Assembly: GCA_023265625.1 (NCBI GenBank)
Contig: JAHFST010000019.1
Span: forward strand, 1-35,097
From: Deltaproteobacteria bacterium
GTDB taxonomy: Bacteria > UBA10199 > JACPAL01 > JAHFST01
Direction of reading: 5' to 3'
DNA: 35,097 bases
In this document: positions 2,802 to 34,982 of the stretch, piece after piece
How the letters are laid out: each line of letters begins with the position of its first letter
Position numbering within the stretch: position 1 is the stretch's first letter
The notes under the pieces: generated by a model
Seen by the model: the letters and a program-made list of their open reading frames with translations, nothing else
Database searches by the model: none
Told to the model about the DNA's origin: nothing
Program-made: the position numbers and the translations under genes

Positions 2802-3227
2802 TCACCAGATCGTCATGATCCCTTCCCATTGCTGGAGTCGCTCATCCTTGGTGATGAGGGGGATTTGTAGCGAGAGGGCGGTGGCCGCGATGATTCGGTC
2901 GGGGAGTTCCGGAACGGCCTCTCGAGGGACCTTGGCCAATAAAAAGGAGAGGTCCGCCGTCAGGTCGACCACCTGATAACTGCCGTAAGGATTGGGTCTC
3001 AGAGTCAACCGGAGTAACTCCCAAATTTGAGCGGGAATCTTTCCCTTTTCCAAGAGGTAAAGGATTTCAATGATCGAGATGGTGGCGAGATAAATGATGG
3101 CCTCGCCCGCTTCGGCCCGTAGGAAACGGCGTTGAGCTTCTTTGGAAAGACGAGTGTCTTCGGATAGGTTCCAGATGAGGGCATGTGTGTCTGCGACAAA
3201 TCGTTCCGTATCGGTTAAGGTTTTCAC
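2802..3227 (-). CDS. PIN-domain toxin (VapC-type)
   Basis: This 141-residue protein has the PIN acidic residues D13 (in FVADTHALIWNL), E54 (in SIIEILYLL), D110 (in LPDRIIAATAL) and D128 (in LITKDERL). The VADTHALIW opening is typical of the PIN branch often paired with AbrB-type antitoxins. Its start overlaps the end of the AbrB-like gene by 4 bases, indicating translational coupling. By family it would be an RNA endonuclease. Its stop is 3 bases before the crotonase ATG. It is in a different sequence branch from the PIN protein at 1607, so it does not look like a recent duplication. Confidence 0.87.
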   Translation of the reverse strand: MKTLTDTERFVADTHALIWNLSEDTRLSKEAQRRFLRAEAGEAIIYLATISIIEILYLLEKGKIPAQIWELLRLTLRPNPYGSYQVVDLTADLSFLLAKVPREAVPELPDRIIAATALSLQIPLITKDERLQQWEGIMTIW

Positions 3228-3469
3228 GATGCAAAGGATTTCCAGGCCTCGTGCCGCGCCTCATTGATTTCCTCTTCCGAAAGATTAACGCCTTTCCAAA
3301 GTCCTCGGAGGCGGATCGGTCTAATCCGATTCATAGGGACAATTTTGAGCCCTTCCCCTTCGGCGACGACCTCCACTTCATCCCCCGCCTTGAGCTTCAA
3401 GCGACTCGCCTCTTGCGCGGGAAGAATGATTCCCACCGAACTGCCAATTTTGATGATCTGGCGTTTCAT
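3224..3469 (-). CDS. AbrB/MazE-type antitoxin (SpoVT-AbrB domain)
   Basis: The 81-residue product opens with the swapped-hairpin DNA-binding motif of AbrB-family antitoxins: RQIIKIGSSVGIILPAQ, then LKLKAGDEVEVVAEGEGLKIVP. The rest is an acidic and basic tail that would bind the toxin. It is followed, with a 4-base overlap, by a PIN toxin gene. The ATG follows an AT-rich stretch with no Shine-Dalgarno. A good sigma70-like promoter lies so close that the transcript may be nearly leaderless (see 3481-3509). It probably represses its own operon, which includes the crotonase gene. Confidence 0.87.
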   Translation of the reverse strand: MKRQIIKIGSSVGIILPAQEASRLKLKAGDEVEVVAEGEGLKIVPMNRIRPIRLRGLWKGVNLSEEEINEARHEAWKSFAS

Positions 3470-3520: not shown

Positions 3521-5005
3521 CTACTCCGTATTGATGGATTCGTGGGCCTTCCAGCCTGCGATCCTTGCGGTAGACCTCGCCTTTAATTCTCGATCACGCG
3601 CAAAGGTCAACGCCCGTTGAATGAGTGCGGTATAAAACACGGCATCTCCGATCAACTGGATGACATTATCTTTGATTTCAATCCACCCGCGGGCCAATAG
3701 GGCATCCCACAAATTGCGATATTCCTCCAAAAGATCGATGCCGAACAACACCTCATAGGCATTGGCATCCAAGCGCATTCGCTGCAGTTGATTGAGCAAA
3801 TAAGACAGGCGGACATCCACGGGTTCAAAGCGGAAGGTGGCTCGCACGGGAAGGCGACCCTTGTCCAGTTGGGCGTAGTACTCGCCCAGGTCTTCGGGGG
3901 CCAGGTAGCTGAATCCCGGCCGGTCGTATTGCCCGACCCGCCGATGGTGACCCATGTAGCCCAACGCCCACCAATCGTTTTTCAAGGGGTCGTGAGATTT
4001 GTTCTCATACTCATAATGGGATCTGTCGTCGTCGATCTCAAAATCGGACATGGTGACCTGACGATACCCTTGGCTTAAAAGAAAATCCCTGATCCCATGA
4101 TACATCCGCAAACGTTCGGGAATAGCGGCACAGAGGCTGGCGTAAGGTTCCGCTGAAAAGGCCGACAAGCCCGGCACTTGATTGAGGGGATAGATGGTCA
4201 GATGGGGAATCTTCCATGCCACCAAGGTTCGGACGTCCTCGAGCGCATCGTCATAAGTTTGAGCGGGCAGGCCGTAGATGAGGTCAACGCTGTGCTCAAA
4301 TCCCACATCTCTTGCGTGCTGCACGGCCAGTTCGACGCCGGCCCTTGTTTGGGTAAATCGGCCCGTATGCTGGATGACACGAGGATTGAGGGATTGTGCC
4401 CCGATGCTGACACGATTCACGCCCGCGTTTTTCAGGGCGTCAAATTTTTCTTTGTCTCGAAACAGATAAGGTATTCCCTCCCAGGTTACTTCGGCCCCGG
4501 GCGCGGGTTGAAAGGCCGCCAAGACTGTTCCGATGAAAATCGCCGACTCGGCCGGACTCAGGAGATTGGGGGTCCCACCGCCAAAAAATACGGCTCCGAC
4601 CTCCATGGGCAAACCGACATGGGAGGTTTGGAATTCAATCTCCCTCTCCACCGCGGCGATATACCGATCAAACAAGGAATGTTTGGCCCCCCTGAGGGCC
4701 ACGACGGGGATGCCGCAGAAGCCGCATCCATCGGCCGTGACCAGGCCGCCAGCGTTGTGTCCATCCGTAGGGATGCAATACGGGAAGCCCACAAAAAGAC
4801 TGGTATCCTCCGAAGGTCTTGCGTTGTCACGATTGGCGGTATTGATTAAGTTCTCCACGATCGGGCCATCGGCAGGCGCTTTTTCATATTGATTCGAGGC
4901 GGGAAAGTTAAATTGAATTCGGTTACCCGGGTTTGTAGGTAGCGCACTGTCCAGTGCGGCATTGATGGCGACTGGAGCCCAAGTAGGATCGATCCGGACA
5001 AACAT
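3521..5005 (-). CDS. HemN/HemW-like radical SAM protein with atypical CX16CX2C motif
   Basis: The start chosen is the ATG at 5005, preceded by GGAGGT, giving 494 residues; a longer frame to 5161 would run through the divergent promoter and into the regulator gene. Family marks are the GGGTPNLLSP segment, RVSIGAQSLNPRVIQHTGR, and the DLIYGLPAQT segment characteristic of coproporphyrinogen III oxidase-like (HemN/HemW) proteins. The [4Fe-4S] cysteines appear as C77 in GFPYC, then C94 and C97 in GCGFC. That is a 16-residue first gap instead of three. The N-terminal 70 residues are not recognisable. HemN makes protoporphyrinogen anaerobically and HemW handles haem; this branch may do neither. It diverges from an XRE regulator across a palindromic operator, so that regulator probably controls it. 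Confidence 0.82.
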   Translation of the reverse strand: MFVRIDPTWAPVAINAALDSALPTNPGNRIQFNFPASNQYEKAPADGPIVENLINTANRDNARPSEDTSLFVGFPYCIPTDGHNAGGLVTADGCGFCGIPVVALRGAKHSLFDRYIAAVEREIEFQTSHVGLPMEVGAVFFGGGTPNLLSPAESAIFIGTVLAAFQPAPGAEVTWEGIPYLFRDKEKFDALKNAGVNRVSIGAQSLNPRVIQHTGRFTQTRAGVELAVQHARDVGFEHSVDLIYGLPAQTYDDALEDVRTLVAWKIPHLTIYPLNQVPGLSAFSAEPYASLCAAIPERLRMYHGIRDFLLSQGYRQVTMSDFEIDDDRSHYEYENKSHDPLKNDWWALGYMGHHRRVGQYDRPGFSYLAPEDLGEYYAQLDKGRLPVRATFRFEPVDVRLSYLLNQLQRMRLDANAYEVLFGIDLLEEYRNLWDALLARGWIEIKDNVIQLIGDAVFYTALIQRALTFARDRELKARSTARIAGWKAHESINTE

Positions 5006-5075
5006 GTTACCTCCGTGAATGGCTAGACCTCGTTCGACTAGCTGGAAAGTTGTGTGGTTTGTGCGGGAAAAGATA

Positions 5076-5104
5076 AAGTATTGATTTTTAATACTTAAAG
5101 TATT
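5076..5104. promoter_or_regulatory. Palindromic operator between radical SAM gene and XRE gene
   Basis: Three copies of a 7-base half-site lie here: AAGTATT (5076-5082), its complement AATACTT (5090-5096), and AAGTATT (5098-5104). The last two form a perfect 15-base inverted repeat centred on 5097. The block sits 14 bases before the regulator ATG and 71 bases before the radical SAM start, as expected for an autoregulatory XRE binding site. TATTAT at 5101-5106 may be the -10 of the regulator promoter, which would make that mRNA nearly leaderless. Confidence 0.55.
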
Positions 5105-5117
5105 ATTTTTATGTACT

Positions 5118-5885
5118 ATGTTGCCGCATGAAAACATTGACCTGATTGCGCAATCCCTCAAGACGACACTCCGTGAGCAGGGCGTATCCTATGCGGATTT
5201 GGGGGGAAGAATTGGCCGAAGTGAATCAAGTGTCAAACGCTTGTTCTCAAAAAAGTCATTCTCCCTGGATCTGTTGGAAAAAATCTGTGGTCACTTGGGC
5301 ATCAGTCTCTTCGACTTGATGGACCGGGCGAAGGGGGCGGCGGCGGTGGAGATTTATACCCTGACAGAGAAGCAGGAGAAGATGCTTGCTGCGAATCCAA
5401 GGTTCTATTGTTTCTTTTGGTTGGTGGTGAATCGGGTGCCGCTCAAGCGAATCCTCTCGGCCTATCATATCCCCATGAAAGAAGCGGAACGTTACCTCCT
5501 GCAATTGAATCGATTCAAGTTGATCGACTTGAAACCCCACAACCGTTTCACGATCTTGGTGCCGCGCACTGTCCAGTGGAGCGCGGGAGGGCCGATTGAC
5601 AAGTTTGTGGTGGCCAACACGCTTTCGCGTTTTTTGAAAGGACGCTTCGATCGCCCCGAAGACTATCACCGTTTTATCATCGCCAAATTGACTCCGGAAT
5701 CGATGCTGCAATTTAAGATCCGTTTTAAGGCGCTCGCCGATGAGCTCTTTGAGCAATCCACCATGATGGAAAGTACGCTGAAGAAATCGAAGACGATGGG
5801 GCTGGTGGTCGCGCTTGGGCAGACTGACTTCTCACTGGTCCATGTCTTGGAAGCGGCCTTGAGAGGGAAACAGCAAAAGACTTGA
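5118..5885 (+). CDS. XRE-family transcriptional regulator
   Basis: The 255-residue protein has an N-terminal helix-turn-helix of the Cro/C1 type at residues 8-60 (LKTTLREQGVSYADLGGRIG, then SESSVKRLFSKKSFS and LLEKICGHLGISLFDLMD). Residues 70-255 are mostly helical and unrecognised, perhaps a ligand-binding or dimerisation region. No Shine-Dalgarno precedes the ATG, and a -10-like hexamer lies only 12 bases upstream, so the transcript may be leaderless. The palindrome at 5090-5104 is its likely binding site. It lies 36 bases upstream of the MCC beta gene on the same strand and could also govern the leucine genes. Known liu regulators such as LiuR are MerR-type, so this would be a different solution. 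Confidence 0.83.
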   Translation: MLPHENIDLIAQSLKTTLREQGVSYADLGGRIGRSESSVKRLFSKKSFSLDLLEKICGHLGISLFDLMDRAKGAAAVEIYTLTEKQEKMLAANPRFYCFFWLVVNRVPLKRILSAYHIPMKEAERYLLQLNRFKLIDLKPHNRFTILVPRTVQWSAGGPIDKFVVANTLSRFLKGRFDRPEDYHRFIIAKLTPESMLQFKIRFKALADELFEQSTMMESTLKKSKTMGLVVALGQTDFSLVHVLEAALRGKQQKT

Positions 5886-5921
5886 GAAAATAGACTGGCC
5901 ACTGTAGAAGACGGGGTTCTT

Positions 5922-7529
5922 ATGGATCCAATTGAAACAACCATCGATAGCAACAGTCAGTCCTTTAAAGACAACCACGAACACTTGGCATCGCTCGTGG
6001 ACAAGTTGAAAGAAGGCCTCGAAAAAGTGGCGCAGGGCGGTGGGGCCGAGGCGGTGAAGCGGCATCGGGCTCGGGGTAAGATGTTGCCGCGGGAGCGGAT
6101 TGGTCAGATCTTGGATCCCGGCGCGCCCTTTTTGGAATTTTCCGCCCTGGCCGCGAACGGTTTGTATCAGGATGAGGCTCCCTCTGCGGGAATGGTGACC
6201 GGGATTGGCGCGGTGCATGGTCGCGAGGTGCTGTTTGTGGCCAATGATGCGACGGTGAAGGGTGGGACCTATTATCCGCTGACCGTCAAAAAACATCTCC
6301 GGGCGCATGAAATCGCCCTCGAGAATCATCTTCCCTGTGTCTATCTGGTCGATTCGGGTGGCGCATTTTTGCCGCTGCAGGCCGAGGTCTTTCCCGATAA
6401 GGAACATTTTGGCCGGATTTTTTTCAACCAGGCGCGCATGTCGGCGCAACGCATCCCCCAGATTGCGGTTGTCCTTGGCTCTTGCACCGCCGGCGGGGCT
6501 TATGTGCCGGCGATGAGTGATGAGACGGTGATTGTCAAAGGGAACGGGACTATTTTTTTGGGCGGCCCGCCGCTGGTCAAGGCCGCTACGGGAGAAGAGG
6601 TGAGTGCGGAAGATCTGGGGGGCGGTGAGGTTCATTGTAAAAAATCGGGAGTGACGGATCATCTCGCAGACAATGAGCCGGAGGCCCTGCGGATCACACG
6701 CAATATCTTGGAAAACCTGAACCGTCCCAAAAAAGCGGGGTTGGATGTCCTGCCTTCGGAAGAACCGCACTACGATCCTCGAGAGTTGTACGGGGTGATT
6801 TCAAAAGATCCGCGTCGGCCTTTTGATGTCCGAGAAGTGATTGCCCGGGTGGTGGATGGGAGCCGCTTTCATGAGTTTAAGGCGCTGTATGGCACGACCT
6901 TAGTCTGCGGGTTTTCCCGCATCATGGGATATCCGGTCGGGATCGTAGCGAACAATGGGATTCTCTTCGCCGAGAGCGCCCTCAAGGGGGCGCATTTTGT
7001 GGAATTGTGCAATCAGCGCGGCATCCCCTTGGTGTTTTTGCAAAATATCACCGGTTTCATGGTGGGCAAACAATATGAAAATAATGGTATTGCCAAGGAC
7101 GGCGCCAAGATGGTGATGGCGGTGGCCTGTGCGCAGGTGCCGAAATTTACCGTGATTATTGGGGGCTCCTACGGGGCGGGAAACTACGCCATGTGCGGTC
7201 GCGCCTATGCCCCGCGCCAGCTCTGGATGTGGCCCAATGCGCGTATTTCGGTGATGGGCGGGGAGCAGGCAGCCACCGTGTTGGCCACGGTCAAGAAGGA
7301 TCAGTTGCAGGAGAAGGGAAAGAAGATTTCTGCGGCAGAGGAAGAGGCCATTCGCAAACCCATTTTGGAAAAGTACGAGCATGAGGGGAGTTGCTACTAC
7401 AGCACGGCCAGGCTTTGGGATGACGGGGTGATTGATCCGGTGCAGACGCGGATGGTGTTGGGGTTGGGGATTGCGGCGGCGTTGAATGCGCCGGTGCCGA
7501 AGACGGATTATGGGGTGTTTCGGATGTAA
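5922..7529 (+). CDS. liuB: Methylcrotonyl-CoA carboxylase beta subunit (carboxyltransferase)
   Basis: The 535 residues match the usual length of MCC beta. The subunit transfers the carboxyl group from biotin to 3-methylcrotonyl-CoA, giving 3-methylglutaconyl-CoA in leucine breakdown. Segments typical of this subunit are [18 protein letters not shown] near residue 108, [29 protein letters not shown], and [19 protein letters not shown] in the C-terminal half. They show the two crotonase-like halves of a carboxyltransferase. These features favour MCC over propionyl- or acetyl-CoA carboxylase. The gene opens a run with the hydratase, biotin subunit and HMG-CoA lyase. The gap to the next gene carries a double-hairpin repeat. 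Confidence 0.95.
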
Positions 7530-7531
7530 CA

Positions 7532-7612
7532 CCCCCCAACCCCCCTCTTATTCTAAGAGGGGGGAGAAAAACTCCGTCTTTACCCCCTCTTAAGGTAAGA
7601 GGGGGTTGGGGG
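7532..7612. repeat. C-rich/G-rich double hairpin between liuB and liuC
   Basis: Two hairpins lie in tandem: CCCCCCTCTTA/TAAGAGGGGGG (7540-7564) and CCCCCTCTTA/TAAGAGGGGG (7583-7605). Outer arms CCCCCCAA (from 7532) and TTGGGGG (to 7612) pair over the whole block, so one large stem is also possible. It is unrelated in sequence to the GTAGGGG family. The GGGGGAG at its right edge lies 11-12 bases before the liuC ATG and may serve as its ribosome-binding site. It may reduce read-through or protect the liuB mRNA end. Confidence 0.8.
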
Positions 7613-7624
7613 AGTTATGAAAAT

Positions 7625-8413
7625 ATGACGAGCATCATCATCACATCAAATGGTCCCATTACCCACGTTCAACTCAACCGGCCTGAGGTCAAAAACGCCT
7701 TCAACGAGGAACTCATTAAAGACCTGACCGATGCCTTTGGTCAGTTGGCCCAGAATGATTCTTGCCGTGTCGTGGTCTTGTCCGGTGCCGGGGGATTTTT
7801 TTGCGCGGGGGGAGATCTCAAGTGGATGAAGTCATTTGCGCATGCCTCCGACGCGGAAAATGAGGCGGATGCGCGGCGGCTGGCTGGGATGTTGGAGGCG
7901 GTGGATCAGTTTCCAAAGCCGGTGGTGGGCCAGGTGGCGGGCGGCGCCTTTGGCGGTGGAGTGGGGTTGGTGTCGGTTTGCGATGTGGTCATGGCGGCGG
8001 AGGGGACGCTCTTTTCGCTCTCCGAGGTGAAGTTGGGGCTGATCCCGGCGGTCATCTCTCCCTACGTGATCGCCAAGACCGGGGTGGCGCCGGCCCGGCG
8101 TTATTTTCTCACCGGAGAGAGGTTTGATGCGGGGATGGCCCAGCGGATTGGCCTGGTGCATGAGGTCACCAAGCAAGAGACCTTGGAGGAGCGTACTTTG
8201 GCGATCGCGCGGGAGTTTCTTTCTTCCGGCCCGGAGGCGGTTCGGGCCTGTAAGGCGTTGATTCGAAAAGTGAGGGGAGAGATTTCACCCGCAATCCAAA
8301 CGATGACCAGCAAAGAAATCGCCCGCCTGCGAGCCAGCCCCGAGGGGCAGGAGGGGATGAGGGCTTTTCTTGAGAAACGACGGCCCTTTTGGTTACCTGA
8401 TGGCAAGTCATGA
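7625..8413 (+). CDS. liuC: Methylglutaconyl-CoA hydratase
   Basis: This 262-residue crotonase-family enzyme would hydrate 3-methylglutaconyl-CoA to HMG-CoA, the step after methylcrotonyl-CoA carboxylase. The oxyanion-hole segment is FFCAGGDLKWMK (58-69). A catalytic Glu is present at E134 in SLSEVKLGLIPAVISPYV, a stretch typical of the LiuC group. Its position between the two carboxylase subunit genes supports the role strongly. Its stop overlaps the start of the inserted HicA gene by 4 bases (ATGA). Compared with the crotonase at 2019, this one keeps a Glu at the key position. Confidence 0.92.
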   Translation: MTSIIITSNGPITHVQLNRPEVKNAFNEELIKDLTDAFGQLAQNDSCRVVVLSGAGGFFCAGGDLKWMKSFAHASDAENEADARRLAGMLEAVDQFPKPVVGQVAGGAFGGGVGLVSVCDVVMAAEGTLFSLSEVKLGLIPAVISPYVIAKTGVAPARRYFLTGERFDAGMAQRIGLVHEVTKQETLEERTLAIAREFLSSGPEAVRACKALIRKVRGEISPAIQTMTSKEIARLRASPEGQEGMRAFLEKRRPFWLPDGKS

Positions 8414-8595
8414 AGGTCCGTGATACCATCAAAATGATTGAGAAGGACGGTTGGTATCTGGTACGTGTACGAGGAAGTCACCGGCAGTACAAACATAGTA
8501 AGAAACCTGGCTTGGTCACGATCGCTGGTAAGCCAAATGAGGATTTGGCCCCTGGGACTTTAAATAGTGTGTTGAAGCAGGGAGGATTTAAATGA
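8410..8595 (+). CDS. hicA: HicA-family mRNA interferase toxin
   Basis: The 61-residue protein has the double-stranded-RNA-binding-like HicA fold signature: KVRDTIKMIEKDGWYLVRVRGSHRQYKH, with catalytic His24 in RGSHRQY, then a KPGLVTIAGKPN strand. HicA toxins cut mRNA and are blocked by HicB encoded next to them. The start overlaps the liuC stop by 4 bases and its end overlaps HicB by 4 bases. The pair is therefore embedded in the leucine-catabolism transcript rather than in its own isolated locus. Confidence 0.9.
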   Translation: MKVRDTIKMIEKDGWYLVRVRGSHRQYKHSKKPGLVTIAGKPNEDLAPGTLNSVLKQGGFK

Positions 8596-8807
8596 TGAAA
8601 TATTTGGTGGTGATTGAAAAGACAAAGTCAGGCTACTCCGCTTTTTCACCGGATCTCCCGGGTTGTGTGGCTACGGGTAAGACCAAGCGACAAGTAGAAA
8701 AAAGGATGCAGGCGGCAGTCTCTTTCCATCTTGAAGGGTTTCGTTTGGAACGACAACGGTTTCCAAAACCCCATAGTTACTCAACCTATTTGGCCTCGCC
8801 GGCATAG
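8592..8807 (+). CDS. hicB: HicB-family antitoxin
   Basis: The 71-residue product has the HicB partial RNase-H-like fold: MKYLVVIEKTKSGYSAFSPDLPGCVATGKT, then a helix KRQVEKRMQAAVSFHLEGF. It lacks the C-terminal DNA-binding domain found in longer HicBs, so it may not repress transcription by itself. GGAGG lies 6 bases before the ATG, a stronger ribosome site than that of the toxin, which fits antitoxin excess. It is followed after 8 bases by the MCC alpha start. Confidence 0.9.
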   Translation: MMKYLVVIEKTKSGYSAFSPDLPGCVATGKTKRQVEKRMQAAVSFHLEGFRLERQRFPKPHSYSTYLASPA

Positions 8808-8815
8808 ATCACGGC

Positions 8816-10543
8816 ATGTTTCAAAAAATTCTAATTGCCAACCGAGGTGAAATCGCCGTCCGCATTATTCGGGCTTGTCGCGGGCTGGGGATTCGGACCG
8901 TGGCGGTTTATTCCGAGGTGGATCAGCCGGCCCTGTATGTGCAACAGGCCGATGAAAGTTATCCGTTGGGCGACCCTCAGCCCCAGCAGAGTTACCTCAA
9001 TATTCCAAAACTGATCGAAGTGGCGCGCCAGGCTAAGGTGGATGCGATTCATCCGGGGTATGGTTTTTTGTCCGAGAACGCCCGTTTTGCGGAGGCCTGC
9101 GCCCAGGCTGGGATTGTTTTTATCGGGCCGACCCCTGCGGTGATCAAGCAGATGGGGGACAAGATTGGGGCCAGAAATATCCTTAAAAATAAAGGTTTTC
9201 CACTCGTGCCTGGCACCAATCAACCGTTGGTTGCGGTGGGGGAGGCGGTGCAATTTGCGGCGGAGGCTGGGTATCCGGTATTGTTGAAGGCGGCCGCCGG
9301 TGGCGGCGGGAAGGGGATGCGGGTGGTGCAGCGGGCCGAGGATCTTCCAGCCGCCTTGGAAGGGTGTCAGCGCGAGGCGAAGTCGGCCTTTGGTGATGAT
9401 CGGGTTTTTTTGGAAAAATATTTGTTGGAACCGCGCCATGTGGAGATTCAGATCATTGCGGATCAACACGGCAACGTCCGACACCTCTTTGAGCGGGAAT
9501 GTTCGATCCAACGCCGTCATCAAAAAGTCATCGAAGAAACCCCCAGCCCCGCCCTGGATGAGACCCTGCGCCAGAAGATGGGGGAGGCAGCGGTTAAAAT
9601 CGCGCGGTTGATCGGTTATCAAAGCGTGGGGACGATTGAATTTATCTTGGATAAAAATCGTGATTTTTATTTTTTGGAGGTGAATACGCGTTTGCAGGTC
9701 GAGCATCCAATTACGGAGATGATTACGGGGGTTGATTTGGTGAAGGCGCAGATTCGAATCGCGGCGGGGGAAAAATTAGATGCGATTGTAGGGGCGTATT
9801 GCAATACGCCCCTACAGACCCGCGGCCATGCCATCGAATGCCGCATCTGCGCCGAAGACCCGGAAAATAATTTCCTCCCCTCCATCGGCAAGATCACCCA
9901 TTTGCGGGAACCGGCCGGTGACGGGGTGCGAGTGGATTCGGGGATCTTTGCGGGGTGGGAGATTCCAGTCGAGTATGATCCGATGCTGGCCAAGCTGATC
10001 GTCCATGCCCCCACCCGTCCACTCGCGATTCGTAAGATGCTCGAGGCATTGGGGCATTATGAGATTGATGGGGTGAAGACCAATATCCCTTTTTTGCGGG
10101 ACCTGTTGCGCCACCCGGAATTTTCCGCTGGGCAGACGGATACCGGGTTTATCCCGAGGAATTTTCCGGAATGGGTGCCGGGACGGTTTGATGGGGAGGA
10201 TCCGTTTAATCCGTGGCAGCGGGGGGATGGGTGGCGATTGGGTGGTACTGTAGGGGCGGCCCTATGTGGCCGCCCGGTCCGAGAGGGCAACCACATAGGG
10301 TTGCCCCTACCGAAACCCGTTCGTACCCCCAAACATGCCCTCACCGCCCCCATGCCCGGCAAGGTTATCAAAATTTCCGTGGTGGTGGGAGACACCGTTA
10401 AAGAAGGCGACCTCCTGGTCGTGATGGAGGCGATGAAAATGGAACATTCCATCCAAGCCAACCGCGCCGGGATCGTGAAGCAACTTTTTTTTCAGGTGGG
10501 AGACAAGGTGGGTATGGGGGAAAAATTGGTGGAGATAGCGTAA
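8816..10543 (+). CDS. liuD: Methylcrotonyl-CoA carboxylase alpha (biotin) subunit, BT domain missing
   Basis: The 575-residue protein starts with a biotin carboxylase domain (KILIANRGEIAVRIIRACRG at 4-23, the AAAGGGGKGMR ATP-loop, and EVNTRLQVEHPITE). It ends with a biotinyl domain from A511, whose biotin-accepting Lys is K541 in EAMKMEH. It would carboxylate biotin and pass it to the LiuB partner. MCC alpha subunits are normally about 650-670 residues because a BT domain sits between these parts. Here the sequence passes from DGWRLGG straight into a translated repeat (V479 to about 499) and then to the biotinyl domain. A second palindrome is translated in frame at about 325-334, in the loop before RGHAIECR, adding about five residues relative to AccC. 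The gene is intact as a frame; whether the enzyme assembles is open. Confidence 0.9.
   Translation: MFQKILIANRGEIAVRIIRACRGLGIRTVAVYSEVDQPALYVQQADESYPLGDPQPQQSYLNIPKLIEVARQAKVDAIHPGYGFLSENARFAEACAQAGIVFIGPTPAVIKQMGDKIGARNILKNKGFPLVPGTNQPLVAVGEAVQFAAEAGYPVLLKAAAGGGGKGMRVVQRAEDLPAALEGCQREAKSAFGDDRVFLEKYLLEPRHVEIQIIADQHGNVRHLFERECSIQRRHQKVIEETPSPALDETLRQKMGEAAVKIARLIGYQSVGTIEFILDKNRDFYFLEVNTRLQVEHPITEMITGVDLVKAQIRIAAGEKLDAIVGAYCNTPLQTRGHAIECRICAEDPENNFLPSIGKITHLREPAGDGVRVDSGIFAGWEIPVEYDPMLAKLIVHAPTRPLAIRKMLEALGHYEIDGVKTNIPFLRDLLRHPEFSAGQTDTGFIPRNFPEWVPGRFDGEDPFNPWQRGDGWRLGGTVGAALCGRPVREGNHIGLPLPKPVRTPKHALTAPMPGKVIKISVVVGDTVKEGDLLVVMEAMKMEHSIQANRAGIVKQLFFQVGDKVGMGEKLVEIA
9787..9816. repeat. GTAGGGG-family palindrome, inside liuD coding sequence
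   Basis: A perfect palindrome runs from GTAGGGGCGTATTG (9788-9801) into its complement (9802-9815), flanked by T and A that also pair. It is read in frame without creating a stop because TAG falls out of phase (GTA-GGG). It is one of six GTAGGGG loci in this window. Confidence 0.92.
10250..10310. repeat. Composite 61-bp GTAGGGG element inside liuD
   Basis: Two imperfect palindromic arms (GTAGGGGCGGCCCTATGTGG... and ...CCACATAGGGTTGCCCCTAC) flank a short GGTCCGAGA spacer. Read on the other strand, the element at 15152-15212 is the same in 59 of 61 positions. It is translated in frame in the linker where the BT domain would be expected. Confidence 0.93.
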
Positions 10544-10544
10544 T

Positions 10545-11471
10545 ATGACTATTTACCCTCCCAGTGTGAGGATCGTCGAGGTTGGTCCGCGCGACGGGTT
10601 GCAAAATGAAAAAATGTCTGTCCCAACGGCGGACAAAATTCGTTTTGTCAATCTCTTGAGTGAGTCTGGATTACCCGTGATAGAGGCGACCTCTTTTGTA
10701 AGCCCCAAGTCGGTGCCGCAGTTGTCCGATGGAGATCAAGTCTTACGTGGCATCAGTCGAAAAGCGGGGGTGAGTTACCCTGTTCTGGTGCCAAATCTAC
10801 TTGGACTAGAACGTGCCTTGGCGGCTGGTGCAAGCGAGATTGCCATTTTTACCGCGGCTTCTGAGCTTTTCAATCAGCATAATATCAACGCGAGTATTGC
10901 TGAATCGTTGCTGCGGTTTGAGCCCGTTATGAAACGGGCGAAAGCTGAGCTGAAGCTGTGGGTACGTGGTTATGTTTCAACTTGTTTTCGTTGCCCGTAT
11001 GAGTTGAAAGAGGATCCCACTAAAAAGATTGATCCTCAGAAAGTGTTCGATGTCGTCCAAAAATTAATCGATATGGGGGTGGATGAGATTTCCCTGGGAG
11101 ACACCATTGGTGCGGCGGAACCGGATGATGTGGCGCGACTCTTGGACATTTTATTGAAAAGATTTTCGGTAGATCAATTGGCCGTTCATTTTCATGATAC
11201 CTATCACTTTCATGAGCGTACTTTGAAAAACGTTAGAAAGGCCCTTGAGATGGGGATCTGGATTGTGGATTCTTCGGCAGGGGGGTTGGGTGGCTGTCCT
11301 TACGCCCCTGGGGCCTCTGGGAATCTAGCCACAGAGGATTTGATTCACATGCTTCACGGTATGAAGATTGACACCGGTGTTGATTTGGCCAAGGTGACAG
11401 ATGCCAGTCGTTTTATCAGTTCGGTGCTGAGGCGCCCGCTGACATCGAGATATTTGCAAAGCGGTGCATAG
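10545..11471 (+). CDS. liuE: Hydroxymethylglutaryl-CoA lyase
   Basis: This 308-residue enzyme would split HMG-CoA into acetyl-CoA and acetoacetate, the last step of the leucine route. The family start RIVEVGPRDGLQNEK gives the metal and substrate residues R16 and D17. HFHDTYHFHERTL provides the metal-binding His pair region, with His after DTY where most family members have Gly. The signature GGLGGCPYAPGASGNLATED contains the catalytic Cys at C251. It starts one base after the MCC alpha stop, so the two are surely co-transcribed. Its last 56 bases overlap the convergent phosphatidyltransferase gene. Confidence 0.95.
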   Translation: MTIYPPSVRIVEVGPRDGLQNEKMSVPTADKIRFVNLLSESGLPVIEATSFVSPKSVPQLSDGDQVLRGISRKAGVSYPVLVPNLLGLERALAAGASEIAIFTAASELFNQHNINASIAESLLRFEPVMKRAKAELKLWVRGYVSTCFRCPYELKEDPTKKIDPQKVFDVVQKLIDMGVDEISLGDTIGAAEPDDVARLLDILLKRFSVDQLAVHFHDTYHFHERTLKNVRKALEMGIWIVDSSAGGLGGCPYAPGASGNLATEDLIHMLHGMKIDTGVDLAKVTDASRFISSVLRRPLTSRYLQSGA

Positions 11472-15155: not shown

Positions 15156-15212
15156 GGGCAACCCTATGTGGTTGCCCTCTCGGGTCGGGCGGCCACATAG
15201 GGCCGCCCCTAC
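15152..15212. repeat. Composite 61-bp GTAGGGG element supplying stop codons to two convergent genes
   Basis: This is the same composite element as at 10250, in the opposite orientation and with two mismatches. Its left GTAGGGG gives the TAG stop of the cysteine desulfurase. Its right end (CCCCTAC), read on the minus strand, gives the TAG stop of the gene at 15209-16129. It fills the whole gap between the two convergent genes and may work as a two-way transcript end. Confidence 0.95.
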
Positions 15213-16129
15213 AAACCCAATTTCCGACTCAACAAAAAAATCTGATCCTGATGGTGTTGCAGTAGACGATTTTTTAAAAAATCCAGGTAATGGATCTCCC
15301 AACCTGGTTGGGTCTTGGAGCCGCGTGGGAAGATTTCGAATCGATTCATCAACGGGATGCCTGAGGCGATGATCAGGTGTAAATCCTTGATGACTTTTTC
15401 TAAAAACTGGCAGGCGGCCACCTTGGTATTGAGTAGCAATTTTTCCCACTGAAATTCTTCCGTCCAGTTGTGATAGCTGTCTAGGTAGGTGCTCTCTAAG
15501 ACGAGGTCGAAGGCGATGGAGACGAGGTCGCGATAGTCGCCTTCTTCGTTGAAGGTGGTGATGAGGATGGTGCGCGTAAAGGTCTCGGCAGAGGCGGTGA
15601 GGCGTTCCTGGCTGGAAACCTCTTCGGCCAGGTTCTTTTTGAAGACAATAGTGGAGGCGGGGGGATGGGATTTGAGGCCGCGGCTGCCGGCGACGAAGTC
15701 TAAGTAGGTGGTCCCATCGTCGCGAATGATCGAACCTAGGAGCTGGACCAGGTTGTCCAAATATTTTAGATCGTAGGCGGGGATTTCCAAATCATCTTGA
15801 TAGAGATCGGCAATCTTGACATCGGTGATCGGTCGTTTGTTGGCATGGGAGGTGCGGTTGACCAGGGCCTGTAATTCCTGAAACGGGATAATATGCCAGA
15901 GGCCCGCCAGATTCAGCAATTTGCGGCGTAACATAATCCGTTGCTCGGGGAGGGTGTCCCACTGGCAGTAGCTCATCAACCAGGTTTCCAATTGGGTGAG
16001 GAATTTATCTTTGAGGGCTTCGTAAGTGGGGCCGTTGGTTTCCTTGGCCAGACACAGTTGCATGAGGAGTTCGCGTTCTGGGGCGTCTAGGTGGGGGAAT
16101 TGTTCGTTGAAGCGATTGTCTACGGGCAC
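15209..16129 (-). CDS. Protein of unknown function
   Basis: The 306-residue product is soluble-looking and mostly helical, rich in Leu, Asp and Glu, with no signal peptide, membrane segment or motif I know. The start is a GTG with no clear Shine-Dalgarno; coding could begin somewhat later. It follows the lipoprotein gene by 45 bases on the same strand, and a run of nine T in the sense direction lies in the gap. Its last codon is followed by a TAG that belongs to the palindromic repeat, so the natural C-terminus may have been trimmed or replaced. That it is a real gene is supported by its length and the absence of a better frame. Confidence 0.65.
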   Translation of the reverse strand: MPVDNRFNEQFPHLDAPERELLMQLCLAKETNGPTYEALKDKFLTQLETWLMSYCQWDTLPEQRIMLRRKLLNLAGLWHIIPFQELQALVNRTSHANKRPITDVKIADLYQDDLEIPAYDLKYLDNLVQLLGSIIRDDGTTYLDFVAGSRGLKSHPPASTIVFKKNLAEEVSSQERLTASAETFTRTILITTFNEEGDYRDLVSIAFDLVLESTYLDSYHNWTEEFQWEKLLLNTKVAACQFLEKVIKDLHLIIASGIPLMNRFEIFPRGSKTQPGWEIHYLDFLKNRLLQHHQDQIFLLSRKLGL

Positions 16130-16174: not shown

Positions 16175-17263
16175 TTAAAAATCAGAGGCATCCAGCCAGG
16201 TATCAATCAAGGCAGGCGTGAGCGCATCCCAGCCATCCTTGGAACTGCCATCGACAAAATAATCGGCGGCGGTGCCTCCCACGGGGGAGGTGTCGTTGTA
16301 ACGTTGCGGCAGGTCCGTGGTGCGGTAGGCATGGGTGCCCCAATGCGGGGTGTCCAGGGAACAGGTGCCGGTGGTCACGCCGCTGTCGGTGGGTTGCGTG
16401 GGCCCGGTGAATTTTTGCGTGGCGCCGACAATCGCGCTGTTGTTTTCGTAGGTGAGGTTGGCCACACAGACCTCTTGATTATCCTCATTCCAAGAGAAGC
16501 GGATCAAATCGCTGGCAAGGGTGCGGGTGGGTTCCGCGGTTTGGATGTTGAGGTATTCCCCCAAACACTTGGTCGTGACGGTGTTGCACTGGTAGTGAAT
16601 GTGGTAGGCGAAGTTGCGTTGGAGGGTGCTGTTGTATTGATAGACCCGCATGGTGATCAGGTTTTGCGTGGGATCGGAGAAGTCAAAGGCGAGCGCGACC
16701 AGACGTGTGCCGGGCCCGTCCGTACTCACGAGCAGGTTGGGATTCACATAGGCAAAGAGCCCTTGTATCGGGTTGCCGTTGGTATCCGAGATGACTAGAT
16801 AAGTTCCCTGAATTTTACCGGTCGTGCTATTTTTAAAATACATCCGGATAAAATCGGTGTCATGGGTGTCTTGCAACAATTCTACTTCCCAAGGGGCGGT
16901 GGTGTTGATGAGATTGATGGAGCTGAGATTGACGGTTTGTGCGGTGCTGGTGATGGTGGTGATGCTGGCGGCCGTCAGTGCCGCCGTGAGCAGGGCCCCG
17001 TAGCTCTCTAGACTGGTGCGTTGGAGCCGGGCCTCGTTGATGGCCCCTTGGAGGAAGTCAGTGGTCCATTGCGTGGCGGGGCCGGTCAGGGCGGCCGTTT
17101 GGCCACTTCCTAAGGTGGTTTCCGGGATGAAGTTCACAAAATCGGGGACAACATTGCCGGTGGGTACCGAGGGGGTGGCGACACTGGAGGTAATGGTGTT
17201 GCAGGAAGTCGCGGTGAGGAGTAGGAGAATTAAATAAAAATGACGATGCAACGGTTGGCGCAT
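16175..17263 (-). CDS. Putative outer-membrane or periplasmic lipoprotein
   Basis: With the ATG at 17263 the product has 362 residues; a longer form would overlap the divergent glycosyltransferase gene. The N-terminus is basic and then hydrophobic (RQPLHRHFYLILLLL), ending in a lipobox-like TATSC, so Cys21 would be lipidated after signal peptidase II cleavage. The rest is Thr/Ser/Asn-rich with many alternating hydrophobic positions, suggesting a secreted beta-rich fold; several Cys could form disulfides. I recognise no family. It is probably in one unit with the unknown gene downstream at 15209. Confidence 0.72.
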   Translation of the reverse strand: MRQPLHRHFYLILLLLTATSCNTITSSVATPSVPTGNVVPDFVNFIPETTLGSGQTAALTGPATQWTTDFLQGAINEARLQRTSLESYGALLTAALTAASITTITSTAQTVNLSSINLINTTAPWEVELLQDTHDTDFIRMYFKNSTTGKIQGTYLVISDTNGNPIQGLFAYVNPNLLVSTDGPGTRLVALAFDFSDPTQNLITMRVYQYNSTLQRNFAYHIHYQCNTVTTKCLGEYLNIQTAEPTRTLASDLIRFSWNEDNQEVCVANLTYENNSAIVGATQKFTGPTQPTDSGVTTGTCSLDTPHWGTHAYRTTDLPQRYNDTSPVGGTAADYFVDGSSKDGWDALTPALIDTWLDASDF

Positions 17264-17283
17264 GATGTGATGTTGGATAGCAT

Positions 17284-18693
17284 ATGTTAGCATTAATTAA
17301 AAACTCTTTGGAGAGAGGTGATTGGCGGGAGGCGGATCGGCTGTGTCATGAGTCAGCGGGGCGTTTTGACCACGAGGCCTTGTTTCATCTCTATCGAGGG
17401 GCCATCCTGGCCCAACAGCAAGATTTAGATGCGGCGGAACAGGCCTTTCAAAGGGCCATCCAGCTTGACCAAACCCTGGTGGCACCCCACAAGAATCTGG
17501 CGCAGATCTACAAGGCAAAATCGGACCCGCGGGTTGTGGAGAGCTTGGTGATGGCGACTTGGTTAGATCCGCAAGACCCAGGACCCTTTCAGGATCTCCA
17601 TCGCCTGGCCCCGGAATTATTCCAATTCCCCCGGGCGGACATCGTTTTTTACACGGGGACTCCGTGGCTCCAGATGAAGTTTTCTCCGGACTCGCTTGAG
17701 ACGGGGGCGTTGGGGGGGAGTGAGACGGCCTTTGTGATGATGGCTTGCGAGTTGTCGCGGTTGGGGAAGAAGGTGGTTTGTTTTTGTAATACGAATGCCC
17801 GGAAAAACTATGATGGTGTTGACTATATCCCCGTCGCCCAGTTTTTTCTCTATGTGCAGGCGAATCCCATCCCCATTTTGATTGCGTCACGTTTTCTTCA
17901 TCCCATGGAACAAGGGGTGAGGGCTGGCCGTCGCCTCCTTTGGTTGCATGATACGCTTGGTTGTGCCAGTGGTGAGGCCATTGGGCCTCATCGGGATCGG
18001 ATAGATTTTCTGTTGGGGTTGAGTGATTATCATATCCAGCAGGTTTGCCAGCGGCACCATCTCCCTGAAACAAAGTTTCTCAAGACCAGAAATGGTTTTA
18101 TCGCAGATCATTTCTTAATGGTGCCCAAAAAGATTCCCCACAGTCTTATTTATCTCAGTCGTCCCGGTCGTGGCTTGGCAGAGGCTTTGGAGATTCATAA
18201 GCGCCTAAAGAAAATCCTGCCGCAGGTGTCGCTGCATGTCTGCGGTTATTCGCAATGGAATCAAGTGGCACAGGACCAGGAGCTTTCCGGCTTGTTGCCA
18301 CGTCTCCAGGAAGCGGGTGTGCATTACCATGGCGGACTTGGCAAAAGGGCGTTGGCCCATTTGCTGTGCCAGATGGAAGTGATGTTGTATCCCAATGTGA
18401 GCGCCGAAGAGACTTGTTGCATCGCGGCGATTGAGGCCATGGCGGCGGGGGTGCCGGTGGTGACTTCGGGTCGAGGGGCCTTGCCGGAGACGGTGGTCGA
18501 TGGTGTGGGAGGATGCGTTGTTCCCTTTGCCGGTGGAGGAGAGGTCTTGATGCAGTCCCTAGAAAAAACCACTTTGGAGTTGCTGACCCACAAGGAACGC
18601 TTGCAAGCCTTATCCAAGAGCGCTTATGATCACGCTTGGAAAAAATATCGCTGGGATCAGATTGCGCGGGAGTGGGTTGAGCTGTTTTTGTAG
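17284..18693 (+). CDS. TPR-containing family 4-like glycosyltransferase
   Basis: The 469-residue protein begins with about 100 residues of TPR-like helices (for example LFHLYRGAILAQQQDLDAAE followed by AFQRAIQLDQ). From about residue 118 it is a GT-B glycosyltransferase: GALGGSETAFVMMACELSRLG, a second Rossmann half starting SLIYLSRPGRG, and an E-x7-E motif at E376 and E384 (ETCCIAAIEAMAAGVPVVT). Such enzymes transfer sugars from nucleotide-sugar donors, often in surface polysaccharide or protein glycosylation; the TPR part may hold the acceptor protein. It diverges from the lipoprotein gene. Its TAG stop is provided by a palindromic repeat. Confidence 0.87.
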   Translation: MLALIKNSLERGDWREADRLCHESAGRFDHEALFHLYRGAILAQQQDLDAAEQAFQRAIQLDQTLVAPHKNLAQIYKAKSDPRVVESLVMATWLDPQDPGPFQDLHRLAPELFQFPRADIVFYTGTPWLQMKFSPDSLETGALGGSETAFVMMACELSRLGKKVVCFCNTNARKNYDGVDYIPVAQFFLYVQANPIPILIASRFLHPMEQGVRAGRRLLWLHDTLGCASGEAIGPHRDRIDFLLGLSDYHIQQVCQRHHLPETKFLKTRNGFIADHFLMVPKKIPHSLIYLSRPGRGLAEALEIHKRLKKILPQVSLHVCGYSQWNQVAQDQELSGLLPRLQEAGVHYHGGLGKRALAHLLCQMEVMLYPNVSAEETCCIAAIEAMAAGVPVVTSGRGALPETVVDGVGGCVVPFAGGGEVLMQSLEKTTLELLTHKERLQALSKSAYDHAWKKYRWDQIAREWVELFL

Positions 18694-33311: not shown

Positions 33312-34982
33312 TTAGATCAGGTTGCTGTAATCAAGCTGGCCAATCGTGTCGTAAATGACTCGGTGCTCGATCCAGTCATCTTTATTAAGGGTAATTGAAA
33401 CGACATGATGCAGGGCCTCGTGTAATAGCGTATTGACTAGTTTTTCAAAATTGATGGTGGGGCCGCCTTGTTTAAGTACCGTTAAATCGATGCAGATGTC
33501 CTCTCCGGTAGGGCCGCAGCCACTCGAGATTCCAAACAGGAAATCCGAGGCGAAGAGGAAGGGGGAGATGGTTTTAACGGAAACATTTTGTCTGTAGGAT
33601 CCATCGAACAGCTGTGACCAGGCCATTGGTTCATAACCATAGAGGTCCAGATTTTCATACAGGGCTAACCTCGTTCCGTTTTGCGCCTTGTTGATCAGGC
33701 CGACGATATCGACTCCGTCGTCGATTTGCACGATTTCAGACTGGACATCATATAGCTCATGCAACCTCTTCATCATCATCGGCACAAGTTGAATGGCCTT
33801 CATTTTTGCCTCACTAAAAATAACTAGCTCATCTGTTGTCATCGGCAAATCGACGCCGACTAAGTTTTTCTTCGGGTACTCAATGGATGTCAATTTTGGC
33901 ATGATCGAAGGATTCAGGGCCGGGGCCGGGTTGTGGCGTGCCCAGAGGTATTCCATGGCATCCCCGATGCCGTCTCCGTCACTATCCCCATTTCTTGGAT
34001 CAAGACCCTGACCTATCTCGAAGAGATCGGTCAGGTAGTCGCCGTCTTGATCGGTGGTCTCAACAAGCTTCTTTAAGTCTTCCTGATAGGCGTAAATCAG
34101 CGGATTAGCAAAGAGGTCGGTAAAAACCAGTCCGTTATTTTTTATCATTGTGGCGTCCACCTCTTCATGAAACACGGGTCCAATCATGCCGCCGGCAAGA
34201 ATCCTCCTCGTCACTTTCACCTTGCCTGTATCCGGGCCAACATAGGGGAGATCTTCGGCGGCCCCGATCGGGATCGGACCCTCAATGTCTTTCAAACTGT
34301 TGATGACATGGGGGGCTACGAGCGGCCAGAATTCGTCCTCAATCAGCCGACTTATTCCGGAAGCAATGATTTTTTCCGGAGAGGTATCCGGCATCGGTAT
34401 AAAATAATCGGAGCCGTTGACAGCCAGTAAGATTCGACCCAGGGGGGAAAAGGTGGCCATGAGGTAAAGATCCTGGCCGTGATGATACCACTTGGTTGCC
34501 TGATTTTCTGTTCCTGCCAAGCAGCCTAACATGGCACTCTTTGAATAGCCGACTTTGGTCATGTTGGTCACATGCTCCGCCTTCAATCGCGCGAGACGGG
34601 CGAAAATGCCATAATAAGAAGAAGACATCAGGCAAAGGTCTTGGAACGCCCTATCCTGCAGGCACTCGATGACCCCCGACCCAACGTAGGAACAAATCAT
34701 GGAAGTGTTTGAAGTATCATCATGGACCACAAAGGACCGTCCCGGGTGACCAAAGATATTTTTTGGCATATTATTCAGCGTCGGGGAGATGTCTGATAAA
34801 TCCCATCGATTGGCCACCCACCCGTCCTTGTTAAACTTGACGACGGTTTTTTCACCCTTCTCCTCATAGTACGGCGGCAGGTAATCTTTCAGTTCAATCC
34901 CTTCCTTTTTGCAATCAAGACTCTTGGATTGGATGGGGTCTCCGAATCCGTCGCTGTCAAGATCCCTAAAGACCATTGTCAT
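33312..34982 (-). pseudogene. Ca-binding (thrombospondin type 3-like) protein with putative zinc-peptidase motif, apparently 5'-truncated
   Basis: The open frame gives 556 residues, but it looks like the remaining part of a longer secreted protein. It begins in the middle of a calcium-binding repeat (FRDLDSDGFGDP at 5-16), lacks any signal peptide, and the codon before the first ATG is a stop. A second repeat block at about 310-345 reads DQDGDYLTDLFE and DSDGDGIGDAMEYLW, typical of thrombospondin type 3-like loops. Near the C-terminus HEALHH (H521, E522, H525) matches the HExxH zinc-peptidase motif; H540 could be a third ligand. Such proteins are normally exported surface or secreted factors. 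The truncated side abuts tandem repeats (34992-35047). It may still be expressed with the gene at 32846. If translated from an upstream start outside the window it could be intact, but the in-frame stop argues against that. Confidence 0.55.

Follow-up and report, generated by a model that had tools for sequence, protein, structure and literature searches.

How is a HemN-like radical SAM protein to be understood whose first two cluster cysteines stand sixteen residues apart? The window, i.e. the whole stretch of 35,097 nucleotides analyzed here (contig JAHFST010000019.1 of the deltaproteobacterial assembly GCA_023265625.1), encodes such a protein on its minus strand, in an open frame of 494 codons that runs from an ATG at 5005 to a stop at 3521 (3521-5005). 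The HemN-like radical SAM identity given in the original prediction is borne out by a match to the Pfam model Radical_SAM (PF04055; E = 1.4e-18, 68 bits against a cut-off of 29.5) and by a structural model that follows HemN over 412 residues. As read from the minus-strand frame, the motif is C77-X16-C94-X2-C97, with codons at 4775-4777, 4724-4726 and 4715-4717 (all minus strand), with IPTDGHNAGGLVTADG between C77 and C94, just as had been quoted in that prediction. C77 is aligned with a cysteine in all relatives compared, whether their spacing is CX7CX2C (26/26 rows), CX6CX2C (4/4) or CX3CX2C (36/36), while C94 and C97 are placed by the translation and the alignment; together with GGG at residues 142-144, the three cysteines carry the same letters in all 66 other aligned rows. 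The other landmarks of HemN and HemW, which had also been noticed, are found as well: GGGTPN at residues 142-147 (4565-4582, minus strand), E176, R198, R216 and D241. The idea that another CX3CX2C might be the real cluster site was rejected, because the protein has four cysteines in all (77, 94, 97 and 292) and this motif occurs nowhere in it.

Fold and family assignment

The AlphaFold model of the window protein, based on 41 sequences, has a mean pLDDT of 86.9 and a pTM of 0.89; values below 50 are confined to residues 83-85 and 87-90 and to the C-terminal tail, so that the gap between the first two cysteines is modeled as a loop, as had been supposed. A Foldseek search with this model placed E. 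coli HemN (PDB 1olt) first (E = 5.2e-26, TM 0.71/0.80), and VIA-align superposed model residues 15-472 on it over 412 residues with Z = 33.8 and an rmsd of 3.1, the next entry reaching 14.8. This alignment extends through the C-terminal domain, and the model has the HemN-like two-domain fold that is one mark of the class C methylases. Sequence profile matches lead to the same two enzymes, with HemN first (1.1e-83) and NocN second (2.5e-55); the NocN structure (9p2u) was not among the best 50 matches of either fold search.

Nineteen NCBIfam models, mostly HemN-like, match the window protein at E values up to 0.001, and it remains below every curated cut-off. The two best scores, from STM4012 (NF006067; 135.4 bits, cut-off 380) and HutW (TIGR04107; 126.2 bits, cut-off 400), link it to the STM4012 and HutW/ChuW proteins; however, an annotated STM4012 protein (L124) and its neighbor in the tree (L125) have CX3CX2C and lie outside the clade described below. 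The HemN model (TIGR00538, cut-off 324.95) gives it 114.5 bits and the HemW model (TIGR00539, cut-off 205.4) 94.1, so that it falls short of the threshold of either family. Five clade members were scored in the same way, and each stayed below all NCBIfam cut-offs among its matches. Elsewhere in the genome there is a HemN proper (503.9 bits for the model with the cut-off of 324.95) and a HemW-like protein whose HemN score is below that cut-off and which we ourselves read as a probable HemW. The window gene is thus a third paralog rather than a housekeeping copy. What it shares with HemN is the fold and, in the SAM site, the motif GGGTP and the E, R and D residues; what separates the two is CX16CX2C in place of CX3CX2C.

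A comparable pattern emerges for the class C methylases (NosN/NocN, C10P, CoeI, TbtI, Jaw5), which resemble the window protein in their two-domain architecture and in the majority of residues at both SAM sites. Their genes also offer a parallel in context, for clade genes sometimes adjoin methyltransferase or polyketide genes. The cysteine spacing is different: NocN and CoeI have CX3CX2C, and C10P is described as CxxxCxxC, in the portions of the sources consulted, as against CX16 in the window protein and CX7 in its clade.

A clade with a seven-residue gap

A first scan of genome contigs with the window protein alone returned no relatives; these were found with a three-row alignment. The search patterns excluded the cysteine motif and required either [YF]FGGGTPN or E[VI]T[FW]EGIP, and of 194 loci only the 80 best were retained; the outgroup is thus not randomly sampled. 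The 22 best loci (L028-L049) all have CX7CX2C. Of the other 58 among these best 80, one (L083) begins too late to show the motif, and the 57 with a readable motif have CX3CX2C throughout. Two Deinococcus plasmids and a further locus (L120) were added to the CX7CX2C set, and four proteins from the phylum Myxococcota (L127-L130) have CX6CX2C. In total, CX7CX2C was found in all 26 distinct relatives of the clade, which come from the phylum of the window genome itself, from Granulosicoccaceae and kin, Myxococcota and kin, Gemmatimonadota, and the Deinococcus plasmids. The two nearest relatives belong to the same class and have this spacing, too: L004 is 57% alike (57 to 63 percent identity per stretch over residues 105-470) and L005, which is identical to L028, 42%.

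The phylogeny was calculated from 67 rows without the motif columns, namely the window protein, the 26 CX7 relatives, the four CX6 proteins and 36 HemN-like CX3 outgroup proteins; four rows (L116-L119) with a core identical to others had been removed. The first gap measures seven residues in 26/26, six in 4/4 and three in 36/36 of these rows. According to the tree, the window protein falls into one group with the 26 CX7 rows (support 100/99), with a single change across the tree. The four CX6 rows group at 100/100 and join the CX7 clade at 93/75, a joining branch without strong support in a tree with several long-branched outgroup rows, and all 36 CX3 rows fall outside. The CX6 group is therefore probably the sister of the CX7 clade, and the simplest reading of the tree would be a single lengthening event before the two split. 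The CX6 proteins further carry GGGTAN for GGGTPN, and in none of the four does a tyrosine occupy the SAM II stacking position.

For the window protein, the consequence is that the three-residue gap of HemN, against which its motif had originally been judged, is the wrong yardstick. Its nearest relatives have seven residues in this place (26/26), and it is best described as a clade member whose loop, long to begin with, has grown by another nine residues, and not as a HemN with thirteen more. Its sixteen residues set it apart from the exact spacing of the clade; the clade-invariant T80, E176-G177 and D321 are retained. As far as the sequences tell, the loop variation of these HemN-like enzymes is inherited across the clade and extreme in the window genome, where the sixteen-residue gap would be a later growth by nine residues, found in this one genome.

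In the phylum of the window genome, 3 of 46 genomes are carriers. In the following surveys, scoring covered no more than four or five first-look candidates per listed genome: the phylum of the L049 genome (a Myxococcales record) yielded carriers in 6 of 329 genomes, one of them CX6, and a CX6 query found 4 of the same 329; the class of the L032 genome yielded 1 of 369 and the phylum of the L046 genome 1 of 298, in each case only the central genome itself. Among viruses, 32 stretches matched the pattern, none of which was a relative by tblastn.

The HemN-like enzymes described in the portions of the literature consulted are of the CxxxCxxC type (PMC12871812, PMC6050322). The clade, whose members come from at least five groups of bacteria, thus departs from the rule of the described enzymes, and the departure is fixed and inherited. 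Radical SAM or HemN and the spelling CX7CX2C came together in the literature searched only in PMC5682303 and PMC11285071. According to the text of these that was available, the spacing is that of PoyB and PoyC, class B enzymes dependent on B12, which have a different architecture with a cobalamin-binding domain; the equal spacing is presumably a convergence. For radical SAM with CX6CX2C or CX16CX2C, in these spellings, which other notations would escape, that literature gave no match, and wider searches gave no further HemN-like case with a long gap among the matches listed. A long loop on a canonical cluster site is described for QueE (CX14CX2C; excerpts of PMC4389238), an enzyme of another family and another reaction, which is likened here by description and not by sequence. 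The natural series of 3, 6, 7 and 16 residues offers a way to explore the limits to which a single fold tolerates a longer cluster loop, and the role that the additional loop plays.

Remodeling around the cluster and the SAM sites

Compared with the CX7CX2C relatives, the window gene has 27 additional nucleotides in frame (4736-4762, minus strand), corresponding to residues 82-90 (GHNAGGLVT as aligned) and to the low-confidence loop of the model. A local duplication was considered as their source and rejected, since none was found within 4600-4850. For L028, a CX7 relative, AlphaFold gave a better modeled loop (mean pLDDT 89.6 overall); in the blocks 81-90 and 91-100, which contain the L028 loop, mean pLDDT is 92 and 78 in L028 as against 48 and 72 in the window protein. 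This comparison of models shows no more than that the poor modeling falls on the extra residues.

The insertion does not stand alone. The window protein departs at 9 of the 51 columns that are invariant in the 26 CX7 rows (residues 54, 71, 76, 91, 98, 99, 210, 214 and 246), where the departure at 91 hinges on the alignment of the gap. Within residues 71-99, 5 of 11 such columns are altered, as against 4 of 40 elsewhere (Fisher p = 0.015 for a region picked after seeing the data), which indicates that the remodeled part is the cluster site itself. The sister protein L004, compared in the same manner with the other 25 CX7 rows, departs at 7 of 58 columns, none of them within residues 71-99. Flanking the insertion are the substitutions Y71F, F76Y, L98G and F99I; at positions 98 and 99, all 26 CX7 relatives have Leu and Phe. 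The cluster surroundings seem to have been altered together, with which both adaptation and decay would be compatible, and such a joint change argues against a bare insertion error.

Which contacts to the cofactors are preserved was judged from the alignment with HemN and NocN, using the residues that contact SAM I and SAM II in NocN as described in the accessible part of PMC12871812. By this standard, the window protein retains GGGT (142-145), which belongs to the motif for the SAM amino group, R198 (Arg153), R216 (Arg171, a contact to the SAM I carboxylate in NocN; codon at 4358-4360, minus strand), D241 (Asp196, which in NocN touches the two SAM molecules alike; 4283-4285, minus strand) and T270 in place of Ser225. 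GGGT, E176, R198, R216 and D241 are common to the window protein and all 26 CX7 relatives; position 270 is Thr in 20 of these and Val in 6. For HemN itself, we take the residue equated with R216 to be Arg184, and the name Glu145 is presumed likewise.

In contrast to these conserved contacts, two tyrosines that touch SAM II in NocN, according to the same partial source, are phenylalanines in the window protein. One is F71 (codon at 4793-4795, minus strand), at the place of HemN Tyr56 and NocN Tyr34, which stacks on the second SAM; Tyr is found there in 26/26 CX7 and 36/36 CX3 rows, so that the stacking tyrosine characteristic of class C is present in all CX7 relatives and replaced in the window protein. 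The other is F140, the equivalent of NocN Tyr96, where 24 of 26 CX7 rows have Tyr. A further difference from NocN is D321 (4043-4045, minus strand), which is aligned with the catalytic Tyr276; the window protein shares Asp with all 26 CX7 relatives, and 4/4 CX6 and 20/36 CX3 rows have Asn.

Possible reaction and gene neighborhoods

We favor, with a probability of roughly 0.55, a [4Fe-4S] radical SAM enzyme with class C-like dual-SAM chemistry of the HemN type, a non-porphyrin substrate of an acyl, polyketide or lipid-like kind, and a cluster loop enlarged by nine residues. A single [4Fe-4S] cluster would still be ligated by C77, C94 and C97, and the loop would protrude from the protein much as in QueE (as far as excerpts of PMC4389238 describe it). 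Cleavage of SAM I would yield the 5'-deoxyadenosyl radical, while a methylene radical would come from a second SAM in the position that it has in HemN and NocN, with D321 perhaps acting as acid or base. In place of a porphyrin, the enzyme would act on a small molecule that is probably of acyl or polyketide type or otherwise lipid-like. Dual-SAM chemistry appears most likely for the clade, because most of the residues that contact SAM I and SAM II in NocN persist there; for the window protein it is likely too, if less surely so, given the two changes from Tyr to Phe. A bolder version, which we put forward tentatively and with a chance well below even, sees a separate HemN-like lineage whose CX6, CX7 and CX16 loops function in the recognition of a substrate or partner during dual-SAM one-carbon chemistry on acyl or polyketide substrates; growth of the window loop together with Y71F, L98G and F99I would then be a joint remodeling of the SAM II pocket for a reaction different from that of the clade.

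The same two phenylalanines could also speak for a single-SAM enzyme, whose 5'-deoxyadenosyl radical would act on the substrate directly, by dehydrogenation, decarboxylation or rearrangement, and without methylene transfer; the four CX6 proteins, none of which has the first tyrosine, fit this as well. We regard it as a possible but rather doubtful reading, for the CX7 relatives keep the first tyrosine in 26/26 and the second in 24/26 cases, R198 and D241 are kept in all 26, and the model aligns with HemN through the C-terminal domain. Unlikely, in our estimate, is a degenerate, cluster-less pseudo-SAM protein, i.e. a copy that has drifted at its cluster site and lost radical chemistry. What recommends this idea is the concentration of changes there, with the nine-residue insertion and an unaltered L004 for comparison, and a weak match to PsgB, a non-iron relative of HemN (20 bits, cut-off 300); yet the three cysteines, GGGTPN, E176, R198, R216, D241 and D321 are intact, the frame is open, and the identity to L004 over residues 105-470 is that expected of a maintained gene. 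The best fold match, HemN, might suggest a heme enzyme or chaperone of the HemN/HemW type with a decorated loop, a view that the low scores for both families, the presence of HemN and a HemW-like protein in the genome and a tree that keeps both outside the clade render quite improbable. That a sequence or assembly error put 27 nucleotides into an ordinary CX7CX2C gene, as had been allowed for at the outset, is very improbable: although the insertion is known from a single assembly of the species and 0 of 5 genomes of the same order have the gene at E 1e-60, it comprises nine codons in frame with no repeat behind it, and the flanking substitutions go beyond what an insertion error alone would give. 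We therefore regard the window gene as probably genuine, though no more than a modest variant of an enzyme type already known.

With respect to the substrate, the neighboring genes of the relatives offer hints. In the Granulosicoccaceae-type loci, an alpha/beta hydrolase gene lies directly downstream in 16/16 cases, at gaps from -8 to 123 nt, and a gene for a GGDEF-EAL protein lies upstream in 15/16, at 100 to 1284 nt, the sixteenth contig starting just upstream; both counts derive from neighbor clusters of which one representative each was typed. On the two Deinococcus plasmids (L110 and L111; 2/2), PKS/NRPS-type genes and genes for a thioester reductase, an aminotransferase, a GNAT protein, a KASIII and an ACP surround the radical SAM gene, which overlaps the KASIII gene by four bases. 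Here a clade gene is part of a natural-product cluster; the members of the clade are uncharacterized enzymes whose chemistry is open to assay. A class I methyltransferase gene adjoins on the same strand in L046 and L132, recalling the C10P/C10Q pair as described in part of PMC6050322, and in L048 a patatin-like phospholipase ORF follows. Two other relatives have, judged from sequence, a LysR-type ORF and a MetF-type ORF, respectively, at the end corresponding to the XRE side of the window gene. No neighbor is common to the whole clade among the 22 of 25 loci counted; in the other three (L043, L048 and L111), the radical SAM gene was missed by crude ORF picking. A hydrolase common to the clade was considered and rejected: the hydrolase encoded beside the G027 gene has little similarity to that of the Granulosicoccaceae (E = 0.008), so the pairing is established only within the Granulosicoccaceae-type loci. 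The neighbors of the relatives point to small-molecule, perhaps acyl, substrates, an indication that nothing in the window gives directly; no hydrolase, PKS or methyltransferase gene stands beside the window gene. A carboxyltransferase neighbor is shared by the window and L043, two cases only.

Upstream of the window gene lies an XRE-type regulator gene with an HTH_26 domain match (5118-5885, plus strand), preceded by AT-rich operator-like repeats at 5074-5117, which consist of two 22-nt copies 77% alike with the inverted AAGTATT/AATACTT and abut the XRE start. From this arrangement a dedicated function of the radical SAM gene had been deduced. The deduction finds no support, and an operon link was rejected, because the regulator gene is divergent and heads another run of genes on the plus strand (5118-11471) with carboxyltransferase, enoyl-CoA hydratase, biotin carboxylase and HMG-lyase-like genes, likely a leucine degradation pathway judging by its gene content. 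Further off in the window, three minus-strand ORFs have no Pfam match (15209-16129, 306 aa; 16175-17293, 372 aa; 33312-34982, 556 aa). Downstream of the radical SAM gene follow genes for a MazE-type antitoxin, a PIN-domain protein and an enoyl-CoA hydratase. The antitoxin and PIN genes are directly adjacent (2802-3469, minus strand), and in L049, two short ORFs that by sequence resemble such a pair (7218-7849) immediately precede the radical SAM gene.
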